Source: a virus
Length of the DNA stretch: 52,066 bases
Strand: one strand, 5' to 3'
IMG/VR virus record: IMGVR_UViG_3300047408_000188
Location: 1 to 52,066 of that record
Position numbers and translations under genes: made by a program. Of the stretch, positions 9,939 through 28,607 are shown piece by piece (position 1 is the first letter of the stretch; every line of letters starts with the position of its first letter). Under the pieces are notes generated by a model. The model was not told the origin of the DNA, did no database searches, and saw only the letters and a program-made list of their open reading frames with translations.

Positions 9939-10702
9939 GCTGCCCCTCCCTTCGCCGGCTCCCGGCGCTTCCTGGCGAGGTAGGAGACGGCCTCAACGAA
10001 TTGCTTCTGAGACAACTGATCGAGCGTTTCGACTTGGCACCAGGCGTAGAACTTCTTGAGGTTAACCGGGCGGCCAAGGCGTTCCAGTTCATCAAAGGCT
10101 TCGTTGAGGACCTGGATTTGCTCGGGCGTGATCGAAGACTGGCCGTTGCCGTCCTTGTCTGCCCCCTGGATCGGGATGTTGAAGTACAGGCGGAGCATAT
10201 CCCTCTGGCAGTACGAGCCGCTGCTGACGGTGCCCTGGAGCGGGTTCATGCTGGAGCCGCCCTTGGCCCCAACGCCATCCCGGGCGTACTCGCCGTGCCG
10301 CGTGTCAACATGGCCGTCCCGGTGACGGACGGTCATGACGAAATGCACGTTGCCCTCGGTCCAAGGCTTGTCCTGGCTGAAACTGACCGAGAACCCGTGC
10401 TTCGTGTACACGGGCTTGGCGACGGAGACCACGGCGGCCAGTTCCGCGTACATCTTCTTGGTGTGGTCGTTCTCCAGGTTCTTGATGACGGCCGGCATCT
10501 CAGCCTGGGCGTCGTTGAGCGCGATGTTGAAGGCTTCAAGGGCTCGCCGGTCGGCGAGGTGTTCGGCCAGCTCGATGAGCTTGCCCAGCTTGTCGGGGTC
10601 GTAGCCCTTATCCAAAGCCTTGTCGATCATCACGATCTCCGGCTTGGACGGCGGGGCGAACATGGTGGGCGGTTGCGGCTGTTCTTCAAAGGTGGCGGTC
10701 AA
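9935..10702 (-). CDS. erf: Erf-family single-strand annealing protein
   Basis: 255 residues from TTG at 10702, preceded by AAGGAGACAGC; longer starts lack a ribosome site. Residues about 60-190 carry the ERF pattern: HTKKMYAELAAVVSVAKPVYTKHGFSVSF, then TVRHRDGHVDT, and further on SSGSYCQRDMLRLYFNI. P22 Erf-type proteins form rings on ssDNA and anneal complementary strands, promoting genome circularisation and recombination-dependent replication. The C-terminal third is a separate helical domain. Works with the YqaJ-type exonuclease downstream. Confidence 0.88.
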   Translation of the reverse strand: MTATFEEQPQPPTMFAPPSKPEIVMIDKALDKGYDPDKLGKLIELAEHLADRRALEAFNIALNDAQAEMPAVIKNLENDHTKKMYAELAAVVSVAKPVYTKHGFSVSFSQDKPWTEGNVHFVMTVRHRDGHVDTRHGEYARDGVGAKGGSSMNPLQGTVSSGSYCQRDMLRLYFNIPIQGADKDGNGQSSITPEQIQVLNEAFDELERLGRPVNLKKFYAWCQVETLDQLSQKQFVEAVSYLARKRREPAKGGAA

Positions 10703-10835
10703 AGCTGTCTCCTTGAAAGTTGCCGCTGACGTTGCCGGCTCGTCAGCAGCGGTATAACTCCTGCCGGGGAGTCCCGAACCCGTCGGGCCGGTTGCCTTGA
10801 GCCGGCAAACTGCCTGCCTGTTAGGGTCGGTAGGC
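10703..10835 (-). promoter_or_regulatory. structured leader before the Erf gene
   Basis: 133 nt with no gene. On the minus strand it contains GCCGGCTC and GAGCCGGC arms about 60 nt apart, an internal CCCGA/TCGGG hairpin, and a hairpin with TGACG/CGTCA and flanking CCGC/GCGG arms ending about 15 nt before AAGGAG. It may modulate Erf translation. No T-run is present. Confidence 0.35.
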
Positions 10836-11207
10836 TTAGACACCGGATTTGGCCAGAAGCGGTTCGTCACAGCTCCAGGTCTGCTCCTCGACCTCAACCG
10901 TCTCCTCGCCGTCTTGAATCATCTTGGGCCGGGTGACGGTCTTCTTGGTGATCTCCAGCTTGCAGACCTGCTCGCGCCGAATGTTGAACTCCAGATCGAC
11001 GCCCCCGCCGAATTGCTTGCGGAGCCAGAAGTAATCACCGCTCCAGTGTTTCGTGACAGGGCCATGCTCCCTGGCGATTGCGGCAAGCTCCTCTTTGTCC
11101 GAAACAAAGAGGTTGAAGTTGGGATTCGGAAGGTAGAACTTTGGGTTCTGTTCCAAGAAGTCAGCCAAAGCCCGAAGGCCAGCAACAACTTCGGCTGTGT
11201 TCACCAT
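10836..11207 (-). CDS. hypothetical protein, first gene of the early operon
   Basis: 123 residues from ATG at 11207 with GGGAGACG upstream. The start (EVVAGLRALADFLEQNPKF) followed by NLFVSDKEELAAIAREHG, FWLRKQFGG and INIRR-type VCKLEI strands resembles small proteins of actinobacteria and their phages that have no assigned function. It is the first gene after the divergent control region shared with the integrase. Confidence 0.7.
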   Translation of the reverse strand: MVNTAEVVAGLRALADFLEQNPKFYLPNPNFNLFVSDKEELAAIAREHGPVTKHWSGDYFWLRKQFGGGVDLEFNIRREQVCKLEITKKTVTRPKMIQDGEETVEVEEQTWSCDEPLLAKSGV

Positions 11208-11337: not shown

Positions 11338-12279
11338 ATGCCCAGCAACCCATCTCACGTCCCAATCGCTGCCATGAAAGTCAACGAAGTCTGCGCGCTT
11401 TACCTGCGCCACTGCGAGGTAGAGGGCACCCATTGTCCCGCGGCCCGTGAAGATCGGCTCCGCACCCTTGCGATGTTCGTCAAAGTCCACGGAGAGCGCA
11501 CCATCGCCGAGTGCCGACCGTTCCACCTGGCCGACTTCATCGAGAACAACCCGCGTTGGAAAAGCACCGCCACAAGGCGGGCGAAATGTAACGAAGTCCG
11601 GGCCTGCTTCGAGTGGGCCCACCGTGGCGAGAGAATCGAACGCAACCCCTTCAAGAGCGTGCGCTACGCCGAGGCAGAACGCCGGCCCGACATGCCGGAC
11701 GACACCCTCGACCGCATCGCCCAGCTCAGCAACAAGCCCTTTGAGCGGGTCGTGCGGTTCCTGCGCCTGACCGGGGCCCGTCTGGGCGAACTGTGTGAGG
11801 CGGTCTGGAAGGACGTTGACCTGGAGCGCGGCATCTGGATCATCCCGAAGCACAAGACGCGGAAATACACCGGCAAGGCCAAGGTGATTGCACTGGTGCC
11901 TGAGGCGGTTGCTCTGCTTCGGGTTATGACACCAACAGGTGCAGGTGGCGTCTGCGCAGGTGTCGTGCTCGCCCCAACTGCAAGCAAAGCTGAAACGCTG
12001 TTCCTGAACACCCGCGGCCGTCCCTGGAACCGACGCACCCTGGGCCAGCAGCTCCGCAGGATGAAGCAGCGGCACGGCATCGACACCAAGGCGAGCCTGC
12101 ACGGCATCCGGCACAGGTTCGGGACGTGTGCCGTGGCGAACAAGGCCCCGATTAAGCTCATCTCGATGCAGTTGGGGCACTCGACAGTTCAAGTCACCGA
12201 GCGGTACTACTGCGACCTGACGAACGAATTGGACGCCATCAGGGATGCGGCTCGGCTGGCGTTGCCGAAGGTGGGATAA
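11338..12279 (+). CDS. int: tyrosine integrase
   Basis: 313 residues; ATG at 11338 behind CTGGAGG. An N-terminal SAM-like core-binding domain (about 12-105) precedes the catalytic domain. The active-site set is complete: R148 (TGARLGE), K in the beta-hairpin HKTRKYTGKAK (about 172-182), H255-x-x-R258 (LHGIRHRF), H281 (QLGHS) and Y290/Y291 (TERYY). It catalyses site-specific recombination between attP and a host attB. Length and layout are those of phage/ICE integrases lacking a large arm-binding domain. A tRNA-Val gene lies 600 bp downstream. Confidence 0.93.
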   Translation: MPSNPSHVPIAAMKVNEVCALYLRHCEVEGTHCPAAREDRLRTLAMFVKVHGERTIAECRPFHLADFIENNPRWKSTATRRAKCNEVRACFEWAHRGERIERNPFKSVRYAEAERRPDMPDDTLDRIAQLSNKPFERVVRFLRLTGARLGELCEAVWKDVDLERGIWIIPKHKTRKYTGKAKVIALVPEAVALLRVMTPTGAGGVCAGVVLAPTASKAETLFLNTRGRPWNRRTLGQQLRRMKQRHGIDTKASLHGIRHRFGTCAVANKAPIKLISMQLGHSTVQVTERYYCDLTNELDAIRDAARLALPKVG

Positions 12280-12881: not shown

Positions 12882-12954
12882 GGTCCGTTAGCGCAGTTGG
12901 TAGCGCACCTGGATCACACCCAGGGGGTCGCAGGTTCGAGCCCTGCACGGACCA
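12882..12954 (+). tRNA. tRNA-Val (anticodon CAC)
   Basis: Full cloverleaf: acceptor GGTCCGT (12882-12888) with ACGGACC (12947-12953); D stem GCGC/GCGC (12891-12894, 12903-12906); anticodon stem CCTGG/CCAGG around loop ATCACAC (12913-12919), giving CAC at 12915-12917; T stem GCAGG/CCTGC with TTCGAGC loop; discriminator A at 12954. CCA is not encoded. Reads GUG codons, frequent in this GC-rich genome. Its closeness to the integrase also makes it a candidate attP-linked tRNA. Confidence 0.95.
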
Positions 12955-17491: not shown

Positions 17492-17673
17492 AGGAGAAGG
17501 CGTTACTGGTGCCGCTCAAAGGCAGGCGAGATGCTTTTGAGTACGTGCCGCTGGAGCGGATGACGCAGGAGCGGCTGGAGCGGGCAATACGGGAGGCGGT
17601 CGAAGCGGAACGCAAGAGGCACGCATGTTCGGACACGCCGACTGGCACAAGCAAGTCCCCCGCGACCCGGTGA
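17488..17673 (+). CDS. hypothetical small protein
   Basis: 61 residues from ATG at 17488 (GGGGAGAAG upstream), overlapping the previous stop by 4 nt and the terminase start by 49 nt. One charged helix (ERMTQERLERAIREAVEAERK). Function unknown. Confidence 0.6.
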   Translation: MKEKALLVPLKGRRDAFEYVPLERMTQERLERAIREAVEAERKRHACSDTPTGTSKSPATR

Positions 17674-19454
17674 AGAACGTCCGCTTCCGGCTCCAGCTTT
17701 ACGAGGACGCCCGCGACAATCGGGAGTTACAGTGCGGCATCCGCGAGTTCTGCCGGCAGGACATTCTCTTCTACACGAACGCTTTCATCTGGCAGATCAA
17801 CCCCCGGAAGGTGGAACAGGAGCTTGGGCCCTTTATCACGTGGGGCTTTCAGGAAGACGCCATTCTGCGGACCTTGCACCGGCTTTACGACGAGCGCCGG
17901 GACGCCTTGTGGGAGAAGTCGCGGGAGATGGGCGCGACGTGGATGGCGCTCATCATCAAGGACTGGCTGTGTCGGTTTCACGACTGGAAGAAGGCTCTGG
18001 CGATCAGTCACACGGCGGACGCGGTGGATCGGCCGGGCGATCCTGACAGTCTTTTCTGGAAAGTGAGCTTCATCAATGAGCGATTACCCGACTGGCTTAG
18101 CAAGGGCTTTCGGCATCGCAAGCTTAGCTTCTCTTATGATGCTACGCGCAGCGCTTTCCAGGGAGCCGCTACTACTGAGCGTGCTGGAGTTGGTGGCCGC
18201 GCTACTTCTCTTCTTCTTGATGAGTTCTCTAAACAGGGAGCTGATCGAGAAATCTACGGTCAGACCAAGGACACCGGCCCCCGGCTCATCATCGGCACGC
18301 ACTACGGCATCGAGGGGCAGTTCTACGACCTGACCCGCCGGGAGGATATGTTCAAGATCCAGCTGCACTGGACGCAGCATCCCGACAAGAAGATAGGCTT
18401 ATACCGCTCAGGAGTGGGCAAGCATGGCTACGAGATCATCGACACCGCCTATCAGTTTCCAGATGATTACCAATTTGTCCGAGACGGAAGCCCACTTGGC
18501 GGACCTTATCCGGGCTTACGATCCCCCTGGTACGACCTGGAGTGTATCGACCGTGCTGACTCCCGACAGGTGGCAATGCACCTGGACATCAATCCCCAAG
18601 GGAGCAAGTCTCAGGCTTTCGATCCAGCTTACATCCGAATGCTCATTGAACGAGACGGCCGCGAGCCCTACTGGCAAGGCGACATAATCTACGACCAGGA
18701 CACCGCCCAGCCAATCGCGCTCTTGCCGAGACCCAAGGGCTTTCTGCTCCTCTGGATGATCTTTGATCGGAACGAACGCCCGCCGCAGACGCAGTACGTG
18801 GCGGGTGCGGACATCGCCAAGGGCACGGGGGCCACGCCTTCCTGTTTTACCATCGTGGACGTAAGCACCGGCGAGAAGGTCTTGGAATACGCCAACCCCT
18901 TCATCAAACCCGAGGAGTTCGCACATCTTGCCGTGGCGCTCTGCCGACTCTTCAAGAACGAGTACGGCGAGGGGGCCTTGTTTGCATGGGAGATGCAGGG
19001 GCCTGGGCTGGAGTTCGGCCAGAAGGTGGTCGAACTGGGCTACCGGAACATCCACTGCCGGACCAACGAGTTCCAGATGGGCGCCGTGCAGTCGGACACG
19101 CCGGGCTGGTATCCTTCGCCCAAGAATATGACGCTCCTGATTGACGAGTACCGGACGGCGCTGCACAAGGGCCAGTTCACCAACCACTCGATCCCGGCGC
19201 TGGAGCAGACGCTGGAGTTCATCGTGTTGCCTTCTGGTGCCACAGAGCACGGCGGCGTGCGGTCCACAAACGATCCCACGGGCGCCCGCGAGAATCACGG
19301 CGATAGGGTGATTGCCGATGGGCTGGCTTGGAAGATGGCCAAGACGTTTGGTACAGTGTCAGCGAAGAAGAAAGAGGCGGAGGAGTTGTCGGTGAACAGT
19401 CTCGGCTGGCGGCGCAAGATGGCCGAGATGACGGAGAAGCGGAGGGAGTGGTAG
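17625..19454 (+). CDS. terL: terminase large subunit
   Basis: 609 residues, ATG at 17625. The ATPase domain has a variant Walker A, SREMGATW (99-106), and Walker B SLLLDE (195-200). The RNase H-like nuclease domain has D396 (GADIAKG), E456 (AWEMQG) and D560 (NHGDRVIADGLAWK). It translocates DNA into the prohead and cuts the concatemer. The Arg-x-x-Gly-x-Thr form of Walker A is usual in phage terminases. The nuclease set is complete, so the protein should be functional. Confidence 0.93.
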   Translation: MFGHADWHKQVPRDPVKNVRFRLQLYEDARDNRELQCGIREFCRQDILFYTNAFIWQINPRKVEQELGPFITWGFQEDAILRTLHRLYDERRDALWEKSREMGATWMALIIKDWLCRFHDWKKALAISHTADAVDRPGDPDSLFWKVSFINERLPDWLSKGFRHRKLSFSYDATRSAFQGAATTERAGVGGRATSLLLDEFSKQGADREIYGQTKDTGPRLIIGTHYGIEGQFYDLTRREDMFKIQLHWTQHPDKKIGLYRSGVGKHGYEIIDTAYQFPDDYQFVRDGSPLGGPYPGLRSPWYDLECIDRADSRQVAMHLDINPQGSKSQAFDPAYIRMLIERDGREPYWQGDIIYDQDTAQPIALLPRPKGFLLLWMIFDRNERPPQTQYVAGADIAKGTGATPSCFTIVDVSTGEKVLEYANPFIKPEEFAHLAVALCRLFKNEYGEGALFAWEMQGPGLEFGQKVVELGYRNIHCRTNEFQMGAVQSDTPGWYPSPKNMTLLIDEYRTALHKGQFTNHSIPALEQTLEFIVLPSGATEHGGVRSTNDPTGARENHGDRVIADGLAWKMAKTFGTVSAKKKEAEELSVNSLGWRRKMAEMTEKRREW

Positions 19455-19813: not shown

Positions 19814-19888
19814 ATTGAGCGACACCTGCCAAGGGCAAAGTGGTGTGACCATTGCGGGCTACTGGGAGAGGCCAGGCCCGCTCCTTGA

Positions 19889-19906
19889 TTCCCGTGGAGC
19901 CGGGAA
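19889..19906 (+). repeat. 18-nt stem-loop repeat, copy 1
   Basis: TTCCCGTGGAGCCGGGAA, a 6-bp stem with a 6-nt loop holding GGAG. An identical copy lies at 28578-28595. Both lie just upstream of a non-ATG start codon of a late gene (portal TTG 19914; scaffold GTG 28608), which suggests a shared translation leader. Confidence 0.6.
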
Positions 19907-19913
19907 GGGCCGT

Positions 19914-21746
19914 TTGGCCAAGAAACATGCCTATGACGACTGGCCCCGGCTGTGCCAGGCCATCAAGCGCTCTCGGCTGATGATGCGGCGTTTCCGCGAG
20001 GAGCGCCGGGAGATGGTCCGTCAGTACGTGGGCAATCACTGGTCGGAAGAGGGCACGCCCGAACGAGTGCCCCTGAACCTCCTCAGCCTGTACGTCTCCG
20101 TGGTCGGTCGGAACCTGATCGCCAAGAACCCGCGGGTGATGCTCAGTACCTTCGAGCGCAAGCAGAAGGCGACCGTCGCCGCCATGATGGACTGGTGCAA
20201 CCGTGAAATCGAGCGAATGCGACTGGCTGAAACACTGCAACGTATTGTTCTCGATGGCCTTTTTTCTATCGGTATCGCCAAAGTTGCACTGGCTTCCCCT
20301 TCGGATAGCGCAGCATTCGCTTGGAATCTCCGTGCGGGTGAGCCCTTTATCAAGCGCGTGGACCTGGACGATTTCGTGTATGACGTTCACTCCCGCGCCT
20401 TTGAAGAATGGGGTTACGTCGGCCATCGTTACCGCGTTCCCCTGGCCGTCGTGAAGGAAGACAAGCACTTCTCCCGCGGTCGCAAGGACCTCACCGCCTC
20501 CAACGACCAGCTCTACAACGCCGAGGGCGACGAGCGCATCTCCGTGCTGGGCCGGGGCGTCTATGCTTCGTACACCGAGGAATACGAAGACTATGTAGAC
20601 CTGTGGGAAATCTACCTTCCCCGTCACCGTCTGGTGGTCACGCTGGCCGACTCCGATCTTGGCGGGCCGGCGGAAGTCATGCACAACGGCTCCCAGCCTG
20701 AACCCTTGCGGGTGCAAGGCTGGCTCGGGCCCGACTCCGGCCCGTACAAGACGCTGGGCTACGGCGTCGTCCCTGGCAATGCCATGCCCAAGGGACCGAT
20801 TCAAGACTTGATGGACAATCACGAAGCTTGCAACAACATCATGCGCAAACTGGTGGCTGCCAGCATGCGCATCAAGGAATTGCTCCTGGTAGCCGGCGGG
20901 GCGATGGAAGACGGCTCACGGGTGCAGACGGCCAACGACGGGGAAATCCTCCGGGTGGACAATCCAGAGCGGATGGCTCAGGTTGTCATGGGCGGCAACG
21001 CGGTGCAGCAACTCGAACAAGTGACGACGTTCCTGCGCGACCTGTTCTCTTGGCAGGCCGGCAACCTCGACATCATGGGCGGCCTCTCTCCGCAGTCGAA
21101 GACAGCCCATCAGGACGCGATGCTCAACGAGAACTCCAGCCGGCAGATGGCGGACATGCAGGACCGCACCGTGACGTTCACTTCGGATGTCATCAAGAGC
21201 TGGCTCTGGTACGAATGGAACCATCCGCACAAGGTTCACACGGGCGAGTATTCGCCGCAGGGCAGCCCCGATGTGGCCGTGAAGCGGGAGATTCATCCTG
21301 CGGGTGCCAGAGCGCCCTTGAGGCGGGAGGGGCGCTTCGAGGACCTCGGCATCCGCGTTGACCCCTACTCGCTCCAGCACAACACGCCGCAGACGCGCCT
21401 GGCCTCCATGATGCAGCTTCTGACCCAGCTTTACTTGCCGATGGCTCCGATTGCCCAGCAGCAGGGCGTGGGCCTGGACCTCAATGCGTGCTTCAAGAAG
21501 TTCGGCGAGTACATGGACCAGCCGGACCTGGACGAAATCCTCACGGTGCAGGAGCCGCCGCAAGACCCCGGCGGCGGCGCGACGGAGCAACCGGGGATGC
21601 CGCAGAACACCACGCGGAACTATGTGCGGGAGAACCGGCCGGGTAGAACGAGACAGGGCAACGACCTTAACATGATGAGTGCCCTGGCGGGCGTGAATCC
21701 GGGTGGGGCACCGAAGAACGGCAAACCCCAAGGGCTGGCACAATGA
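19914..21746 (+). CDS. portal protein
   Basis: 610 residues from TTG at 19914 (GGGAAGGG upstream); the frame is open back to 19815. Forms the dodecameric ring through which DNA enters and leaves the head. The N-terminal helix (KRSRLMMRRFREERREMVRQYVG), the long helix region (LMDNHEACNNIMRKLVAASMRIKELLL) and the C-terminal tail (GGLSPQSKTAHQDAML, later a Gly/Pro/Gln-rich end) are typical of large podovirus-type portals encoded after TerL. The start is uncertain because a structured RNA and a repeated stem-loop precede it. Confidence 0.88.
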   Translation: MAKKHAYDDWPRLCQAIKRSRLMMRRFREERREMVRQYVGNHWSEEGTPERVPLNLLSLYVSVVGRNLIAKNPRVMLSTFERKQKATVAAMMDWCNREIERMRLAETLQRIVLDGLFSIGIAKVALASPSDSAAFAWNLRAGEPFIKRVDLDDFVYDVHSRAFEEWGYVGHRYRVPLAVVKEDKHFSRGRKDLTASNDQLYNAEGDERISVLGRGVYASYTEEYEDYVDLWEIYLPRHRLVVTLADSDLGGPAEVMHNGSQPEPLRVQGWLGPDSGPYKTLGYGVVPGNAMPKGPIQDLMDNHEACNNIMRKLVAASMRIKELLLVAGGAMEDGSRVQTANDGEILRVDNPERMAQVVMGGNAVQQLEQVTTFLRDLFSWQAGNLDIMGGLSPQSKTAHQDAMLNENSSRQMADMQDRTVTFTSDVIKSWLWYEWNHPHKVHTGEYSPQGSPDVAVKREIHPAGARAPLRREGRFEDLGIRVDPYSLQHNTPQTRLASMMQLLTQLYLPMAPIAQQQGVGLDLNACFKKFGEYMDQPDLDEILTVQEPPQDPGGGATEQPGMPQNTTRNYVRENRPGRTRQGNDLNMMSALAGVNPGGAPKNGKPQGLAQ

Positions 21747-21955
21747 ACTCCTCTCGCAAGCACCAGCAATTCGACGCGGCCGGTATGTGTTTGTGCGGCT
21801 GCGGCCTGACGCGGCTTGAGGACACGATGCGCCGTTACAGGCTCACAGCGTTCATCAACAATCATGTCCCCGACGACGGCACCAAGGTAGACACAACCGG
21901 CAACGACGGGGACATGATTAGCTTGGACAACCAGCCTTACGAGAACAACCGATGA
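21743..21955 (+). CDS. hypothetical protein with Cys-rich N-terminus
   Basis: 70 residues, ATG at 21743 overlapping the portal stop by 4 nt. CLCGCGL near residue 16 looks like a metal site; the C-terminus is acidic and polar. Start of the accessory block between portal and scaffold. No recognised function. Confidence 0.65.
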   Translation: MNSSRKHQQFDAAGMCLCGCGLTRLEDTMRRYRLTAFINNHVPDDGTKVDTTGNDGDMISLDNQPYENNR

Positions 21956-22299
21956 AGCGCTGCAAGACCTGTCACTTCCTTCCGTGCCGCTGTGAGGACC
22001 TCGCCGCCGCGTACACCCTGCCCTCCTGCCTGCCCTCCTGCTGGCCGATGAAGTCGGAGGCTCTGGCCGTCCATCCCAAGCAGATCGGCGCCGCCGTCGA
22101 GGACGCCCGGAAGAAGGGCGTGTCGGTGGACTTCACCAAGGACGGCCGCGTGATCTTCCGCGACAGGAACCACCGGGCCGAGTATCTCAGGGCTTACGGC
22201 TACTTCGACCGGGACGCGGGCTATGGCGATCCGTCGCCGGGCAGTTTCCGAGGGGACCGGCCTGACGAGCGGAAGCCGGACTATTACGACGGGGAGTGA
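21952..22299 (+). CDS. conserved phage protein with Cys cluster
   Basis: 115 residues, ATG at 21952 overlapping the previous stop by 4 nt. Begins KRCKTCHFLPCRCED (C-x2-C, then C-x-C). The central part EALAVHPKQIGAAVEDARKKGVSVDF then GRVIFRDRNHRAEYLRAYG followed by FFDRD-like FDRDAGYGD is a module I recognise from small phage structural-region proteins. Function not known. Confidence 0.75.
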   Translation: MKRCKTCHFLPCRCEDLAAAYTLPSCLPSCWPMKSEALAVHPKQIGAAVEDARKKGVSVDFTKDGRVIFRDRNHRAEYLRAYGYFDRDAGYGDPSPGSFRGDRPDERKPDYYDGE

Positions 22300-22303
22300 G
22301 TGA

Positions 22304-22753
22304 ATGAATCCATTGTCGCAGTGGCTCGTGTTGTGTTTGATGCTGGTTCTGGTCATCTCGAACATCGCCAATCAGGCCGCGAACTCGACCCTGACGGCGA
22401 TTGCGGCTGCCGTGACCGCCGTGGCGATTACCGGCGGCATGGTCTGCCAGATCATCTTGCAAGTCATGGCACGGGTTGAGGCCAAGAAGGTCTCCGACAA
22501 GCAGGCCAAGGAAGTGAAGGAAGTGAAGAACGCTCTGGCCGAGTCGGATTCGGTGGTCGGGTTGAAACTGGACACGATCCACAAGTTGGTCAACAAGGAC
22601 ATGCACGTTGCGCTGGCCACGATTGCCCGGCTGGAACGGCGTGAGGCTGACCGGACGGGAAAGAACGAGGACATTGCCAAGGCTGTCAATGCCGAGGCGA
22701 TGTTGGCAAGGCACGACGCCAACCAAGTAGAAGCTGACAAGGGGAAACCATGA
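22304..22753 (+). CDS. membrane protein, holin-like
   Basis: 149 residues, ATG at 22304 behind a GGAGTGAG. Two transmembrane helices lie close together (residues about 6-24 LVLCLMLVLVISNIANQA and 31-52 IAAAVTAVAITGGMVCQII), followed by a long charged cytoplasmic coiled coil (AKKVSDKQAKEVKEVKNALA). A two-helix hairpin with a charged tail next to another tiny membrane protein is typical of holin pairs. Other envelope roles are possible. Confidence 0.6.
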   Translation: MNPLSQWLVLCLMLVLVISNIANQAANSTLTAIAAAVTAVAITGGMVCQIILQVMARVEAKKVSDKQAKEVKEVKNALAESDSVVGLKLDTIHKLVNKDMHVALATIARLERREADRTGKNEDIAKAVNAEAMLARHDANQVEADKGKP

Positions 22754-22917
22754 GCGCTGGCAACTGGTTCTGGATCATCTATATCATCATCGGCCTCCTC
22801 GGAGCCGGCTGGGGATTCACCAATGCCCCGGATCGGCGTTACATCGGCGGCGGTTTTGTTGTCTATGTGCTCATCGGTCTGTTAGGTTGGGGAGTGTTCG
22901 GCCCGCCGCTCAAGTGA
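22750..22917 (+). CDS. 55-residue two-helix membrane protein, holin-like
   Basis: ATG at 22750 overlaps the previous stop (ATGA). Two hydrophobic helices (WFWIIYIIIGLLGAGWGF and GGFVVYVLIGLLGWGVFG) joined by a short polar turn. Size and topology suit a small (anti)holin working with the preceding gene. No sequence family recognised. Confidence 0.65.
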   Translation: MSAGNWFWIIYIIIGLLGAGWGFTNAPDRRYIGGGFVVYVLIGLLGWGVFGPPLK

Positions 22918-22923
22918 GGCCCC

Positions 22924-23586
22924 ATGCACCGTTTCCTCTCCGCGGTCCTGCTCCTTGTCGCTTCTCTGCCCGCCCTAGCCGATGTCGTTGCCAAGCCCGG
23001 CGAGTTAGTTGTCATCGAAGCCCCGGTCAAGGGCGACGTGGCCTGGCTGTACGACGCTCGCGACTTCGACGCCAAGCACTCCTTCACCGTCAACGGCAAA
23101 CTGATCCTCACGACCGCCAAGCCGGGCGTGTACTCAGTCTCCTACGTGGCCTGGGACGAGAAGAAGATTGGCCAGATTCTGGTCACGTTCAGCGGGACGC
23201 CGGTTCCGCCCGTTCCGCCTGATCCGCCGCCTGATCCACCACCGCCCGTCGATGCGCTGACCGCCTCGCTCCAAGCCGCCTGGAAGACCGAGACTCAACG
23301 TGACCCCCAAGCCTCAGCGTTCATCGCTGCTGCTTGTCGGCAGGCCGCTCAGGTCACGGTTCCGGCGGTGACGACCTGGGACCAATTACTGGCGACGTTG
23401 AGCAAGGTGATTACCGACAAGATCGGGCCCGCAACCACAACCCTGCCCAATGTTCGGCAGGCGATCCGCGTGTACTTGAACTCCGTGTTCCCCAAAGCGC
23501 CGGGAACGCCAATGGACGCTGCCGGCCGCGTACTCGCCGTGGAACACCTGAACAAACTTGCCGCCGCCCTGGAGACGCTCAAGTGA
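22924..23586 (+). CDS. secreted protein: beta domain, Pro-rich linker, helical domain
   Basis: 220 residues, ATG at 22924. Sec signal peptide (HRFLSAVLLLVASLPALA, cleavage after ALA about residue 19). A beta-sandwich-like domain (VIEAPVKGDVAWLYDARDF ... KPGVYSVSYVAWD) leads to a PVPPDPPPDPPPPV linker and a helical C-terminal domain. This architecture is, to my knowledge, most familiar from planctomycetes and their phages. Probably acts outside the inner membrane; whether in lysis or host modification is unknown. Confidence 0.75.
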   Translation: MHRFLSAVLLLVASLPALADVVAKPGELVVIEAPVKGDVAWLYDARDFDAKHSFTVNGKLILTTAKPGVYSVSYVAWDEKKIGQILVTFSGTPVPPVPPDPPPDPPPPVDALTASLQAAWKTETQRDPQASAFIAAACRQAAQVTVPAVTTWDQLLATLSKVITDKIGPATTTLPNVRQAIRVYLNSVFPKAPGTPMDAAGRVLAVEHLNKLAAALETLK

Positions 23587-24551
23587 AGAAGAAAACACCG
23601 CTCCTGGGATTCATCGAACTGGAGAAGCGGACCCCCCGACAACTCGACGCCCACATGCGGGCGCTGGCCACGATGCGACCGCTCGCACAACAGGCCCTGC
23701 CGGTCCCCGAGCTGGCCAAAGGGGAGCGGGTCTGCCTCTACGATAGCTGGAGCAACCCGGCCGTGGCTTCCGACGTGGGCTTTGTCTTCCCGAGGTTCCA
23801 CCAACTTACAGGTTCGTGCGTCGGCGCGGGTGGAGGGCAAGCGCTATTCACACTGATTGCCGTCCAGCGACTGCTCGCCGTTAATCCAACGAAAGCGTTC
23901 ATTCCCTTCTGGCCATTCGATTACGGACGTTGCCGGTACAATGAAGGAGACCGAGGCCAGGGCGAGGGAGCGATGGGCAGTTCCTTCGCGGAAACCATCG
24001 TCAGAGAAGGCGTCATCAGTGCGAGCGAGCCAGGTCTTCCGGTCTTCAAGAACCAAGACGGGTTGGTGCTGACGAATGCCCTGGAGATGGCCTGGAGCGA
24101 CGGGGCGTCCTCGACAGTAACGAAGTACATGGACGCGGCCCGCATCCATCTAGTCGGCGCGGCGGCAACGTGCAAGACTCCTCAGGACATCAAGGCGGGA
24201 ATCCTCAATGGCTACCCATCAAGCTTCGCGTGCAACAACTACATCGGCAAGGCTTCCATCGTGGGCAGCGGAAGCGATGCTTGCCTCGTGGGCCGCTGGG
24301 ATGGTAGTGGCGGGCATCAGCAATCAATACACGCTTTCTGGGAGCATCCAAACCTTGGACCGCTCTACTTTGCGCTAAACAACTGGGCCGGCAACACGTA
24401 CACCAAAGACCCGGCGGGCGGGCCGATCTGCGGCTGCTGGGTCAAGGAAGCCGACGTGACGGCGGCGATGCGGCTCAGCAGTGAAGTCTTTGCGTACTCT
24501 AACCTGAACTGGTTCCCAGCCCAGCCTGCCGTGCTGGACTGGATTCTTTAA
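23583..24551 (+). CDS. papain-like (C1-type) cysteine peptidase
   Basis: 322 residues from GTG at 23583, overlapping the previous stop by 4 nt. The papain-fold active site is visible: Q74 and C79 in HQLTGSCVG, H250 in SIHAFW and N266 in NNWAG. No signal peptide. In family C1 the Cys/His pair cleaves peptide bonds. No canonical lysozyme, amidase or capsid protease (S14, S78, U35) was seen elsewhere, so this could be the lytic enzyme, a head-maturation protease or an anti-host factor. Location between portal and scaffold is compatible with maturation. Confidence 0.75.
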   Translation: MKKKTPLLGFIELEKRTPRQLDAHMRALATMRPLAQQALPVPELAKGERVCLYDSWSNPAVASDVGFVFPRFHQLTGSCVGAGGGQALFTLIAVQRLLAVNPTKAFIPFWPFDYGRCRYNEGDRGQGEGAMGSSFAETIVREGVISASEPGLPVFKNQDGLVLTNALEMAWSDGASSTVTKYMDAARIHLVGAAATCKTPQDIKAGILNGYPSSFACNNYIGKASIVGSGSDACLVGRWDGSGGHQQSIHAFWEHPNLGPLYFALNNWAGNTYTKDPAGGPICGCWVKEADVTAAMRLSSEVFAYSNLNWFPAQPAVLDWIL

Positions 24552-24560
24552 GGAGCAACG

Positions 24561-24881
24561 ATGTCGCGCACGTCCATTCTCAACGAAAAGGCTGCACAGG
24601 TGGGCGAGCATCTGACGAGCGCCCAGTACAGTTTCGATCCCGCCTCGATCATCGCCATCATCACGGCGATCATGCAACTGTTCGCCGGCTGCAAGCAATC
24701 GCCGGCACAGGTGGCCAGGCGCGCCAAGAGTCCTCGCTTCCTCGATCGGGTTCGGCTGCGGGGCCTGCTCCGCAAGGAAGCCGCGTCCGCCGATCACGAA
24801 GCGCTGGAGGCGGCACTGCTCGACGCCGGGCAGGACTTGAAGCCGGCCGAAGTCAAAGCCATGTACGAAGAAATCGCCTAA
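24561..24881 (+). CDS. hypothetical protein
   Basis: 106 residues, ATG at 24561 after AAGGAG. A hydrophobic segment (FDPASIIAIITAIMQLFAGC, about 25-44) is followed by a basic, helical C-terminus (RRAKSPRFLDRVRLRGLLRKE). It may be membrane associated. It belongs to the accessory block with the peptidase and secreted proteins. Confidence 0.65.
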   Translation: MSRTSILNEKAAQVGEHLTSAQYSFDPASIIAIITAIMQLFAGCKQSPAQVARRAKSPRFLDRVRLRGLLRKEAASADHEALEAALLDAGQDLKPAEVKAMYEEIA

Positions 24882-24894
24882 CGGGAGGTTTGCC

Positions 24895-25233
24895 ATGTCG
24901 CATCTTGCAGGTCTCTACGCCTATCCGCCCGATGCCGTGAAGGCGTCCAAAGTCGTGCTGTCCTACCTGACGGGCGGGCTAGTCGATGGAACGCCCGTGG
25001 ACAACCTGGACGCGCTCAAGGCTGCCTGGGCAGTCCAGGGTTATGCCATGTCGTTCATCCCCGACCCAGCCGGGGCGAACCTTCAACTGGCGGCGGCGCC
25101 GATGACTCAGGACAGGATGGTCGAGTATCTCCGCGAACTGTCCACCCACCACGCCAAGGCGGGCTTTAGCCTGCCCTGGAACCAGCTGCTGGCCCTGGCG
25201 CTCCAGATCATCACGAACATCCTGAACAAGTAA
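24895..25233 (+). CDS. hypothetical protein
   Basis: 112 residues, ATG at 24895 with GGGAGG upstream. Mostly helical with a hydrophobic C-terminal end (LPWNQLLALALQIITNILNK), similar in layout to the preceding protein and possibly a partner at the membrane. Not recognised. Confidence 0.65.
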   Translation: MSHLAGLYAYPPDAVKASKVVLSYLTGGLVDGTPVDNLDALKAAWAVQGYAMSFIPDPAGANLQLAAAPMTQDRMVEYLRELSTHHAKAGFSLPWNQLLALALQIITNILNK

Positions 25234-25243
25234 GGAGTCCACC

Positions 25244-25777
25244 ATGCGATCTCTTCTGTGCCTCGCCCTCTTGCTTCTACCCGGCCTGGCCCGAGCCGGC
25301 GATTACGACGAGGAAGCACGCCAGGCCCTGCTCGCCGCCATGAAGCAGACCGAGCGTCCTTTGTGCGAACGAGCGGCTGTGACGGAGACGCCGGGCACTA
25401 CCGGCGTTCCCTTTCCGGCAGAGTCCAAGCCCTCCTATCGTGCTCCGGTACGTGACCCCTTTGCCGACGACAATCGTATGGTTGCCCGGCCCCGCTTGGA
25501 CGACGTTAACAGTCCGCTCGTACAGCTCAAGCCAGCCCGTGGCGCGACGGTCCTTCATCCGGCGAGTTCGTCAGCGATGGCGGCTACTGCTTGGTCTGTC
25601 CCCGCTAACATGAGCCATCAGGCGCCGGCCATGATGATGCGCTCGGCACCGATGAGCGCTGGGGCGTGTGGCTCCTCGGGAGCGGGCGCCGGCGGTTGTG
25701 GCTCCGCGTCGGGCGGCGGCAAAGCGATGGGGCGGATGAGGGGCGGCATGGCTCGCACGGCTGGCCGAGGCGGCTGA
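25244..25777 (+). CDS. secreted Cys/Gly/Met-rich protein
   Basis: 177 residues, ATG at 25244 behind AAGGAG. Signal peptide RSLLCLALLLLPGLARA (cleavage near residue 19). The mature part is low-complexity, with Pro/Ser linkers, a Met-rich patch (APAMMMRSAPM) and a CGSSGAGAGGCG tail ending in RG repeats. Might bind metal or haem as partner of the next gene, or be an envelope-targeted accessory protein. Function unknown. Confidence 0.7.
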   Translation: MRSLLCLALLLLPGLARAGDYDEEARQALLAAMKQTERPLCERAAVTETPGTTGVPFPAESKPSYRAPVRDPFADDNRMVARPRLDDVNSPLVQLKPARGATVLHPASSSAMAATAWSVPANMSHQAPAMMMRSAPMSAGACGSSGAGAGGCGSASGGGKAMGRMRGGMARTAGRGG

Positions 25778-25812
25778 TAAGGCTCCTCACCAGTCTCCAG
25801 TTGGGGACGATC

Positions 25813-26862
25813 ATGTTTCTGGCACTGCTTCTCTTCGTTGCCGCTGATCTGCGACTTATGGTGTCCGCCAGTGAGGAACAGGCGGCGGCAACGATGCTCC
25901 CCTCGACCAACGACGCAAAGCTCAAGTCGATCCTCGCTCTGCCGTTGACGTTCTACACCGACAAGGAAATTCCCAAGTGCTACCAGCACGCCGGGGGCGT
26001 TCACGACCCGCGCTATAACATCAGCGGGGGCAAGGTCAACGGGAGCGAAACGCTGGGCAACGCCAACCTGGAGTTCCCTTGGTCGAGTCCGGCCGGGATG
26101 CACCGCTGCGACAACGCCCGCAAGTTGCGATTCGTTCACTTCCCCGATCAAATCCAGTGGTGGGTGACGGACGTTAAGAATCTGCCCGTACCGCCGACCA
26201 ATGAGAAGTTCATCGAGTGGTCCTATCCCGAGGGCACCGTCTTCGGAGAGATTCTGGCGATCAAGGACGGCGACACGTCCATCACGTTTGAACTCCGCAC
26301 GTGGTCGAAGGTCAGTGGCAGATGGTCTGCTGCGGCCTACCGTCCATTCCTGACACGTGCGGAGTTCTCTGACTGGCTCAAAGGGGAAGGCTACGACCTC
26401 GGCTCGCCAACGCTCAGCTACCGAGCCTTGCGGAACGAGCATCCCTTCACGATCTTCGACCGGCAGGCGTGGTACGACGAGCTTCCGGCCCTGCCGCGCG
26501 ACGTGGCCCTCAAGGCCCTCCGGCAACCATTCAAGCGGGCCAACGATAAAGCGTGGATCGAGTCGCAGGGCTTCAAGGGCCACGCCCCGACCACCACCGA
26601 GGCCCTGTCCATCGTGCCGCGCTTCTACGACGCAGCCTTGATCCCGGTCAACACGACAAGCTGCATCGCCTGCCACAAGGGCGTCGGGCATCATGCCAGC
26701 GAGTTTCAGGAGCGGCGGCAGTGGTACGGCCGGGTGAGGGGCTCGGACAACATCTTCTCGTTCCACATCTTCGAGCCAAGCTGTATCAGCGGGGACGGGT
26801 TCAACAAGCCGATCGTCTTCCGCCGTGAACTGGCCGGTCTGCTCAAGCGCTGGAGGCAGTAG
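25813..26862 (+). CDS. exported c-type haem-binding (CXXCH) protein
   Basis: 349 residues from ATG at 25813 (GGGGA upstream). The N-terminus FLALLLFVAADLRLMVSAS is a signal peptide. One haem-c attachment motif, CIACHKGVGHH, lies at residues 284-294 (coded at 26662-26694); export plus host cytochrome maturation would be needed to attach haem. The rest is an uncharacterised beta-rich domain (FPDQIQWWVTDVKNL ... EWSYPEGTVFGEILAI). A c-type cytochrome-like gene is very unusual in a phage and may be a host-derived auxiliary gene. Redox or electron-transfer function is inferred from the motif alone. Confidence 0.7.
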   Translation: MFLALLLFVAADLRLMVSASEEQAAATMLPSTNDAKLKSILALPLTFYTDKEIPKCYQHAGGVHDPRYNISGGKVNGSETLGNANLEFPWSSPAGMHRCDNARKLRFVHFPDQIQWWVTDVKNLPVPPTNEKFIEWSYPEGTVFGEILAIKDGDTSITFELRTWSKVSGRWSAAAYRPFLTRAEFSDWLKGEGYDLGSPTLSYRALRNEHPFTIFDRQAWYDELPALPRDVALKALRQPFKRANDKAWIESQGFKGHAPTTTEALSIVPRFYDAALIPVNTTSCIACHKGVGHHASEFQERRQWYGRVRGSDNIFSFHIFEPSCISGDGFNKPIVFRRELAGLLKRWRQ

Positions 26863-26864
26863 CG

Positions 26865-27131
26865 ATGACGGACAAAGATTTCAACGGGCTGATGCGTCAA
26901 CTGGGGATGCACCAACGCCGCAAGGTGGTTCGGTCCCTGATGACCGGCAACGACGCCCAGTGCTTCACGACTCAGCAGTACGCCGAGGCTTATCACCGAA
27001 TCTGCCATCGGAACCGACCGGAAGGCCGCGAGTGGTGGATTAAGTACCTCACCGAACTCACCCCGATGCACTTGAAGTCGGTCGGCATGGTCGAAGTAAG
27101 TCCGAACGTATGGGGGCCAGATGCGCCTTGA
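26865..27131 (+). CDS. hypothetical protein
   Basis: 88 residues, ATG at 26865, two nt after the haem-protein stop. Helical (FNGLMRQLGMHQRRKVVRSLM) with several Trp/His (HRICHRNRPEGREWWIKYL). It could be cytoplasmic. Overlaps the next gene by 11 nt. Confidence 0.65.
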   Translation: MTDKDFNGLMRQLGMHQRRKVVRSLMTGNDAQCFTTQQYAEAYHRICHRNRPEGREWWIKYLTELTPMHLKSVGMVEVSPNVWGPDAP

Positions 27132-27513
27132 TGTGTTCCATAGCATCAGTGCGGGCGGCTGGTCCACCATCGCGCTCTGCATGGCTTTCTGGTTCGCCGG
27201 ATGGATCGTGAACGAAATGAGCAAGCGCACCCCGAAGAAGAAAACTGGTACAATGCCCTGCACAGGAGTCGTCGTTGTGGACAAACTAACGCTATCGAGT
27301 CAATCGCCCACTTTGCTGCTCGATGTCCTTGAACTCTTGCAAGGGCTTGGCTTTCAACTTCTGAGCGTCACCTACAAGCACGGCCCGCCTCTGGTGTTCT
27401 CGGCCGAAGTAAGCGGCAAGGTGGGCATGACGGAAGACGACGTGAAGGCTGTGGTTGAAAAGCTGAACAAGCAAGCCGCTCGCCTGGCGGGAATCAGTAA
27501 ACAACCTGAGTAG
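27121..27513 (+). CDS. single-pass membrane protein with cytoplasmic domain
   Basis: 130 residues, ATG at 27121. A transmembrane helix (GGWSTIALCMAFWFAGWIV, about 12-30) is followed by a basic stop-transfer (KRTPKKK) and an alpha/beta domain (LLLDVLELLQGLGFQLLSVTYKHG ... DVKAVVEKLNKQAARLAG). An internal GTG start at about 27277 with ACAGGAG could also produce the soluble part alone. Unknown function. Confidence 0.65.
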   Translation: MRLDVFHSISAGGWSTIALCMAFWFAGWIVNEMSKRTPKKKTGTMPCTGVVVVDKLTLSSQSPTLLLDVLELLQGLGFQLLSVTYKHGPPLVFSAEVSGKVGMTEDDVKAVVEKLNKQAARLAGISKQPE

Positions 27514-27542
27514 ACCGTTTCTCTCTTGAAAGGATGTGACGC

Positions 27543-27788
27543 ATGGCAGTTCCTCAAGCTTTGACTGACGCCTTGGCCAAGGTGGACACGGAGACGAACA
27601 ACCTCGCCGCCGTGGTGACGGACCTACGCAGCAAGATCGGCGTGGGCATGACGCAGACCGACGTGGACGCCGTGGACGCAACGCTCGATGCGATTTCGAC
27701 GCGGCTTAGCGGCATCGCCGCCGATCCGACCAACCCGATCCCCGCTGGACCGGGACCGCAAATGTCGAAGGCCAAGAAGAAGCCATAG
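27543..27788 (+). CDS. conserved small phage protein
   Basis: 81 residues, ATG at 27543 with AAAGGATG upstream. A helical coiled-coil-like start (ALTDALAKVDTETNNLAAVV), then Gly/Pro-rich C-terminus ending KAKKKP. The 'AxxKVDxETNxLAxxV' pattern occurs in small phage structural-region proteins of unknown role. Last gene before a strong terminator. Confidence 0.7.
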   Translation: MAVPQALTDALAKVDTETNNLAAVVTDLRSKIGVGMTQTDVDAVDATLDAISTRLSGIAADPTNPIPAGPGPQMSKAKKKP

Positions 27789-27828
27789 TGCAGCGTCGTG
27801 CGACCTCCGTATCCGCATGACGAGGGGC

Positions 27829-27872
27829 ACCCAAGCGTTGTCGAGTAACGCCGGCAGCGCTTGGGTTTTTTT
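27829..27872 (+). terminator. intrinsic terminator
   Basis: ACCCAAGCG (27829-27837) pairs with 27858-27866, followed by a run of seven T (27866-27872). A strong rho-independent terminator closing the terminase-portal-accessory unit. Confidence 0.85.
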
Positions 27873-27885
27873 CAGGGAGTGAGCC

Positions 27886-28275
27886 GTGGCCAACGAAGTG
27901 ACGATCAGTGCAACGCTGGACTACGAAGACGCAGAAGGAACTGAGGATTCTCTACAAGTTCTGCTGCGGACGCTCACTTCGACCGGCAAGCAGATCATGC
28001 ACCACAAGCAAGTCATCGGCATCACCGAGGAAGCCATCGTCCTCGGGGAAGTCACGTCGATAGGCATGGCGCTCTTCGTCAACCGCGACGTGACAAACTT
28101 CGTGGAATTACGGGTCTCAACCGGCGGGGCCAAGTTCGCCAAACTCCATCCCGACACCAACGGGGACGGCAAGGGCGGCATCGCTTTGCTGTACATGGGC
28201 AGTGGTGCTCAGGTGCCGTTTGCGATCTCGGACACCGCAGCTTGCAAGATCGAATACTTCCTCGTCATGCAGTAG
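27886..28275 (+). CDS. hypothetical beta-rich protein (decoration-type)
   Basis: 129 residues from GTG at 27886 with AGGGAG upstream. Beta-rich (VTISATLDYEDAEGTED, VLGEVTSIGMALFVNRD, VELRVSTGG ... KIEYFLVMQ). Resembles small phage virion proteins that sit on capsids or tails; not specifically recognised. Lies after a terminator and before the scaffold promoter. Confidence 0.65.
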   Translation: MANEVTISATLDYEDAEGTEDSLQVLLRTLTSTGKQIMHHKQVIGITEEAIVLGEVTSIGMALFVNRDVTNFVELRVSTGGAKFAKLHPDTNGDGKGGIALLYMGSGAQVPFAISDTAACKIEYFLVMQ

Positions 28276-28281
28276 AAGACA

Positions 28282-28506
28282 ATGGACCTGTGCGACGTTG
28301 GCCGAAACATTCCTGCACGTCGGCCTGGCTGCGGAACAGGCGAGACTTGTCCGTCACCGGCCATCCATTTAATCGTCTCGCCGATCAGCACAATCAAACT
28401 CTGCGACGATCATTTTCAGGTGGCATTGTCCTTGGGGCTGGTCAAGGAGCCGAACATCGGCCAAGAAGAATACGACCGGCGCGAACGAATGCAGTTCAAA
28501 GGCTAG
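28282..28506 (+). CDS. small Cys-containing protein
   Basis: 74 residues, ATG at 28282 with a weak AGAAG upstream. CDVG, RPGCGTGETCPSP and KLCDDHF give a four-Cys zinc-site pattern; the C-terminus is charged. No family recognised. Confidence 0.6.
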   Translation: MDLCDVGRNIPARRPGCGTGETCPSPAIHLIVSPISTIKLCDDHFQVALSLGLVKEPNIGQEEYDRRERMQFKG

Positions 28507-28539
28507 AGCCTAATCGCCACTTAACTTCGCAATAGCCCC

Positions 28540-28569
28540 TTGCAATATGTCTACCGCTCTCCGTAAGAT
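28540..28569 (+). promoter_or_regulatory. promoter of the scaffold-capsid operon
   Basis: TTGCAA (28540-28545) and TAAGAT (28564-28569) with 18-bp spacing in the 100-nt gap before the scaffold gene. Together with the terminator upstream it makes the capsid genes a separate transcription unit. Confidence 0.5.
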
Positions 28570-28577
28570 AGGCGCGC

Positions 28578-28595
28578 TTCCCGTGGAGCCGGGAA
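28578..28595 (+). repeat. 18-nt stem-loop repeat, copy 2
   Basis: Identical to 19889-19906 (TTCCCGTGGAGCCGGGAA). Here it lies 13 nt before the GTG start of the scaffold gene. Confidence 0.6.
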
Positions 28596-28607
28596 AGTTT
28601 AAGCGCC

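Follow-up and report, generated by a model that had tools for sequence, protein, structure and literature searches.

The window, that is, the whole stretch of 52,066 nucleotides analysed here, very probably represents the entire genome of a phage, and it carries a gene for a predicted exported protein of the haem-c type. Attachment of one haem to this protein by covalent bonds is highly probable from the sequence, and an exported redox function is likely. We lean, if only just, towards the reading that the product is a mono-haem c-type redox protein of Planctomycetota and their phages, exported to the periplasm and carried by the phages. The gene (haem-c gene) is a phage accessory gene: it is located in a genuine phage genome, is missing in the relatives of this phage and has homologues in host chromosomes. 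The gene and the sites within it are as follows.

25813..26862, plus strand: haem-c protein gene, 349 aa, translated without an internal stop
25813..25869, plus strand: predicted signal peptide MFLALLLFVAADLRLMVSA, from sequence, with a putative cleavage site
26056..26082, plus strand: conserved block GNANLEFPW, residues 82-90 of the protein, which served as a search pattern
26662..26676, plus strand: CIACH haem-c attachment motif, Cys284-Cys287-His288 (TGC ATC GCC TGC CAC), conserved in 45/45
26722..26748, plus strand: conserved block WYGRVRGSD, residues 304-312 of the protein
26764..26766, plus strand: His318, candidate second axial haem ligand, conserved in 44/45

The 349-residue ORF with one CXXCH, described in the initial annotation, matches the sequence exactly. 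The signal peptide claimed there is a prediction, the N-terminus (MFLALLLFVAADLRLMVSASEEQ) being of the exported type, hydrophobic and signal-like with no basic residue in the n-region. Comparable hydrophobic N-termini are seen in most family members with a clear start, the start positions of several members being guesses. GGGGA is found 5-6 nt upstream of the ATG. The protein contains 5 Cys and 10 His residues, and any CXXCH arose in 0.18% of shuffles of its own residues.

The first and last 127 bases of the window are identical (1-127 and 51940-52066, a direct terminal repeat). Because this repeat is exact, the window is most likely a whole genome of 51,939 bp that was assembled as a circle. 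Its hosts are most likely planctomycete bacteria. The following features surround the haem-c gene.

11338-12276: phage integrase (PF00589), near the tRNA-Val(cac) gene
12882-12954: tRNA-Val(cac) gene, close to the integrase gene
17625..19454, plus strand: terminase large subunit (phrog_2, E 2.5e-8)
19815..21746, plus strand: portal / head-tail connector (phrog_332, E 6e-7)
22300..28600, plus strand: accessory insert of ~6.3 kb, between the portal-associated small gene and a scaffold-like gene, absent from L002-L004
29575..30627, plus strand: major head protein (phrog_9953, E 1.6e-5; 43-45% identity to L002-L004)

No second copy of the ends of the tRNA-Val(cac) gene was found within the window. 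In the three related contigs L002-L004, genes for terminase, portal, small protein and head protein are present in the same order as in the window. The gap between small protein and head protein is about 0.9-1.1 kb in these contigs, space for the scaffold gene and little more, as against about 7.3 kb in the window. The haem-c gene is inside the 22.3-28.6 kb insert, and L002-L004 lack it. The terminal repeat, the structural genes flanking on both sides and this synteny establish that the gene is phage-encoded, as had been proposed, and host contamination is therefore rejected.

Automatic searches for relatives using the single haem-c protein gave no matches, and relatives were found by hand-made degenerate patterns from blocks guessed to be conserved. 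The pattern NxNLEFPWxxP retrieved L006, whose protein is 33% identical to that of the window across 341 aligned residues and has CMHCH where the window protein has CIACH. Ten viral contigs (IMG/VR) and 15 genome contigs were obtained with GRxRGSDxIxSFH, and a full-length relative is encoded on each of these 25 (tblastn E 1e-49 to 1e-71). With a profile-guided scan the number of viral contigs with the family rose to 19, or 20 IMG/VR contigs counting the window. Diverged members escape such pattern scans. A third pattern, NTTxCIACH, gave a single match in an unrelated frame, which was set aside as chance.

A CXXCH not conserved in homologues had been named as one outcome that would refute the haem assignment; the motif is present at the same place in all 45 aligned members, down to the lowest identity of 25%. 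Across the first 25 relatives, the WYGRVRGSD block follows it at constant spacing. Further positions with at least 90% conservation among members include E87, F88, P89, W90, W136, E146, E160, R162, W171, R309, D312 and H318, the last being absent from the L111 copy. In all, about 50 conserved positions are distributed across a beta-rich domain some 350 residues long. No model in Pfam, NCBIfam or PHROG matches the family above noise, no homologue of known function was found in these collections or in the PDB, and no paper describing the family was found in the open-access literature. By its sequences the family thus appears to be a previously unclassified one, of Planctomycetota and their phages.

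Two AlphaFold models (pLDDT 77.6 and 82.8) have a beta-rich core and the lowest confidence around the haem site. With these models Foldseek gave no PDB or BFVD match at E<=0.001, and a profile search of PDB sequences with the family gave no match. Resemblances of the models to rotavirus VP8*, urate oxidase and C2 domains were weak and were disregarded. A new haem-protein fold is possible, and the family is a candidate for one.

The family was compared with known haem proteins. None of 36 members matched a cytochrome family above the Pfam cut-off, and no Met that could serve as sixth ligand C-terminal to CXXCH is among the columns conserved in at least 90%; His318 is found instead. Membership in class I cytochromes c was rejected on these two grounds. 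Compared with class I proteins, the window protein is also far larger, beta-rich, and has its haem motif near the C-terminus. Cytochrome P460 (PF16694) resembles the family in having a single CXXCH near the C-terminus, and it occurs in some of the same genomes. The P460 fold is beta-rich. Membership in P460 was nonetheless not supported, as there was no Pfam match and the hhalign probability was 13%, in a comparison with a P460 set of only 4 sequences that aligned only around the haem motif. No P460 was among the 50 Foldseek matches listed, which were obtained with models that are weak at the haem site. NapC/NirT (PF03264; E 0.11) and TorC (TIGR02162; E 0.2) match the protein weakly and locally, over 17-18 residues at the haem motif only and far below cut-offs.

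A search for homologues in planctomycetes and other bacteria had been suggested, and homologues were found in planctomycetes: 15/15 genome matches were in Planctomycetota, a restriction that depends on one exact pattern (GRxRGSDxIxSFH). The gene was present in 1/392 genomes in a phylum-wide draw, in 4/95 in Gemmataceae (the family of a Gemmataceae MAG) and, for the order to which a Pirellulales MAG belongs, in 24/397. Its host distribution is thus patchy, with copies in a scattered minority of planctomycete chromosomes. The host copies, where checked, are among ordinary chromosomal genes; the one in L040 is within a few kb of genes for ribosomal proteins and that in L037 adjoins rlmN. Synteny of host copies is retained among close relatives only, and no partner gene conserved beside them across clades was found. 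Two copies are present in one MAG (G414), one of them chromosomal and the other in a phage-like region with DUF5131 and a pectate-lyase-like protein.

Viral contigs besides the window were assessed from their gene neighbourhoods, and hallmark phage genes were found in several. The haem gene is between a GpA terminase and a lambda-type portal in L109; a phrog_138 major head protein is near the copy on a 274-kb phage contig; and tail sheath, ribonucleotide reductase, SbcC, terminase and head protease are near it in other contigs. The phage copies range in GC from 27-65%, on contigs of up to 274 kb. The haem-c gene thus recurs in several unrelated phage lineages and is carried recurrently. No match to the family was found in INPHARED phages, a search covering 50,697 phage records, or in PLSDB plasmids. 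The earlier statement that haem-c proteins are very rare in phages holds for these isolates, with 0 matches, but not for metagenomic contigs, which number 20 including the window. The AT-rich 87-kb phage contig L096 also encodes, at 10178-11125, a DUF1559 pseudopilin whose N-terminus bears a methylation motif (PF07596, PF07963). DUF1559 is a domain typical of planctomycetes.

In a first tree of 25 sequences, a well-supported split had phage copies on either side. A larger tree required 3-4 host/phage changes; its deep branches are weakly supported and several phage branches are long, and with such trees the gene may have passed from host to phage or from phage to host. The suggestion of a host gene picked up by the phage is compatible with the planctomycete homologues.

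The genes adjoining the haem gene were compared among the phages. The relevant ones are listed below.

23583..24551, plus strand: ORF with a papain-like motif order in its sequence, QLTGSCVGAGG ... GGHQQSI ... LNNWAG (putative C1 assignment)
25244..25777, plus strand: upstream secreted low-complexity ORF, 177 aa, with no relative near other copies
26865..27131, plus strand: small ORF after the haem gene, 88 aa, GNDAQCFTTQQYAEA; a relative adjoins the haem gene in L052 (blastp E 2e-8)
L042 8811-10421, L111 8980-10362, L108 7629-8906: trypsin-like proteins directly after the haem gene

The Met/Cys-rich secreted protein at 25244-25777 had been put forward as a partner of the haem protein. Since no recurrence of it was found, that role is unsupported, and the recurring neighbours are the ORF at 26865-27131 and proteases. 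Besides the haem gene, this small ORF is the only gene common to the window and L052. The trypsin-like protease genes are directly 3' of the haem gene, and their products have a signal-like N-terminus; collagen-like Gly-Pro repeats in these proteins were matched by Pfam for L111 and seen by eye in L042 and L108. In L110 a C1 cysteine protease gene, related to PDB 3ois (E 1e-34), is directly 5' of the haem gene. The C1-like ORF at 23583-24551 had no significant Pfam or PDB match, and its homology to the L110 protease was not retained, the comparison not being significant. Two haem proteins carry additional N-terminal segments: in L006 a thioredoxin domain with WCPNC is fused (PF00085, 2e-9), and in L111 a holin-like membrane segment was seen by eye, which matched no family. 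The neighbours vary in large phages, and no recognisable protease was seen beside the gene in L053-L059, L096, L106, L107 and L113.

From the known chemistry of CXXCH proteins, export and covalent attachment of haem via the host maturation system are implied. In the preferred reading of a periplasmic redox protein, the haem-c protein would be translocated across the membrane, the host cytochrome c maturation system would attach haem at Cys284/Cys287, and His288 would be the proximal ligand. The near-invariant His318, Arg309, Asp312, Trp304 and Tyr305, which are near the motif in the sequence, may contribute either the second ligand or an active site. The protein could then pass electrons to a periplasmic or envelope substrate, or act on such a substrate. 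Phages that carry the accessory gene would supplement the same host function during infection. With about 50 spread conserved positions and the thioredoxin fusion, a redox enzyme or module is more probable than a simple carrier of electrons that diffuses freely. That no Met ligand is conserved likewise favours it over a class I carrier; we infer an enzymatic role from the conservation. Host copies outside any phage context favour a function that also benefits the cell; the recurrent proteases beside phage copies favour a role in the envelope. Within an exported redox function, metabolic or respiratory supplementation is placed somewhat ahead of envelope modification for lysis or exclusion.

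It is possible, though unlikely, that the protein serves lysis or superinfection exclusion by modifying the envelope: its haem/thiol redox chemistry and an exported protease encoded alongside it would act together on the protein-rich planctomycete envelope. The protease genes after the haem gene in L042, L108 and L111 and before it in L110, the thioredoxin fusion and the holin-like segment are in keeping with this, as is the protein sacculus with disulfide bonds described in R. baltica (PMC2754498). Against it, the large phages have no recognisable protease beside the gene, conserved chromosomal copies distant from phage genes would be odd for a lysis gene, and the holin-like reading of L111 has no family match. 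The protein-wall literature is also old, and peptidoglycan has later been reported in planctomycetes.

In an improbable alternative, the protein would be no more than an electron carrier of respiration, a cytochrome in the periplasm that sustains host respiration like other auxiliary metabolic genes. The single CXXCH would suit it, and there are viral precedents: phage contigs carry soxD with cytochrome c motifs, read as auxiliary metabolism (PMC8190135), and cbb3 oxidase subunit genes have been reported from marine viral reads (PMC3474794). The ribonucleotide reductase on one large phage here likewise indicates uptake of metabolic genes. The protein is large and beta-rich, its motif is near the C-terminus, no Met is near-invariant and no cytochrome model of Pfam matches above cut-off, all of which speaks against a carrier.

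More speculative is a new-fold mono-haem c redox enzyme that would remodel the host envelope together with exported proteases and thiol-redox domains, and that some hosts keep for their own use; this we regard as doubtful. That such remodelling would serve lysis or the exclusion of other phages, in many unrelated planctomycete phages, is equally doubtful. A non-haem CXXCH site (e.g. metal or disulfide) or host contamination is very improbable, for although further CXXCH matches occur in window frames (e.g. CKTCH in 21922-22296), the invariance of the motif and the exported-type N-terminus argue against the former, and the 127-bp terminal repeat, with structural genes on both sides of the haem gene, speaks against the latter together with synteny.

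Phage SoxD is, like the product of the window gene, a protein with a cytochrome c motif encoded on phage contigs. SoxD belongs to a known sulfur-oxidation complex and two phage SoxD lack the motifs (PMC8190135), whereas all members of the haem-c family have the motif. The SoxD and cbb3 genes are precedents for haem-protein genes in phages. Reports of phage proteins with covalent haem are rare, and these cases are of known sulfur or respiratory pathways. Borgs are reported to carry multihaem cytochromes and are thus, like the haem-c phages, extrachromosomal elements with haem-c proteins; they are archaeal elements with multihaem proteins, whereas the present family has a single haem and occurs in phages (PMC9605863). 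As with phage auxiliary metabolic genes or morons, the haem-c gene is an accessory insert in a structural region, with relatives that lack it and with host homologues. Since the motif is kept across phages of varied size and base composition and in scattered chromosomes, selection on phages for extracytoplasmic redox seems real, and it seems that hosts receive from their phages a redox protein that works outside the cytoplasm. The family offers a testable handle on the dealings of phages with planctomycete hosts; little work has been done on the phages of this group.

Three minor observations concern the surroundings of the haem gene. The small gene of the window at 26865-27131 and its relative in L052 (3939-4274), unclassified and found in phages that are otherwise unrelated, have GNDxQCFTTxQYxEA in common. 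The small protein encoded after the portal (21952-22299), conserved in L002-L004, has CKTCH and CRC in its window copy, probably a zinc-ribbon-like motif and not haem. Downstream of the haem gene cluster, one hairpin stands out.

27829..27866, plus strand: intrinsic-terminator-like hairpin, 15 pairs, then TTTTTT

The total of terminator-like sites in the window is not above that in shuffles, and the stem of this hairpin is by far the longest.
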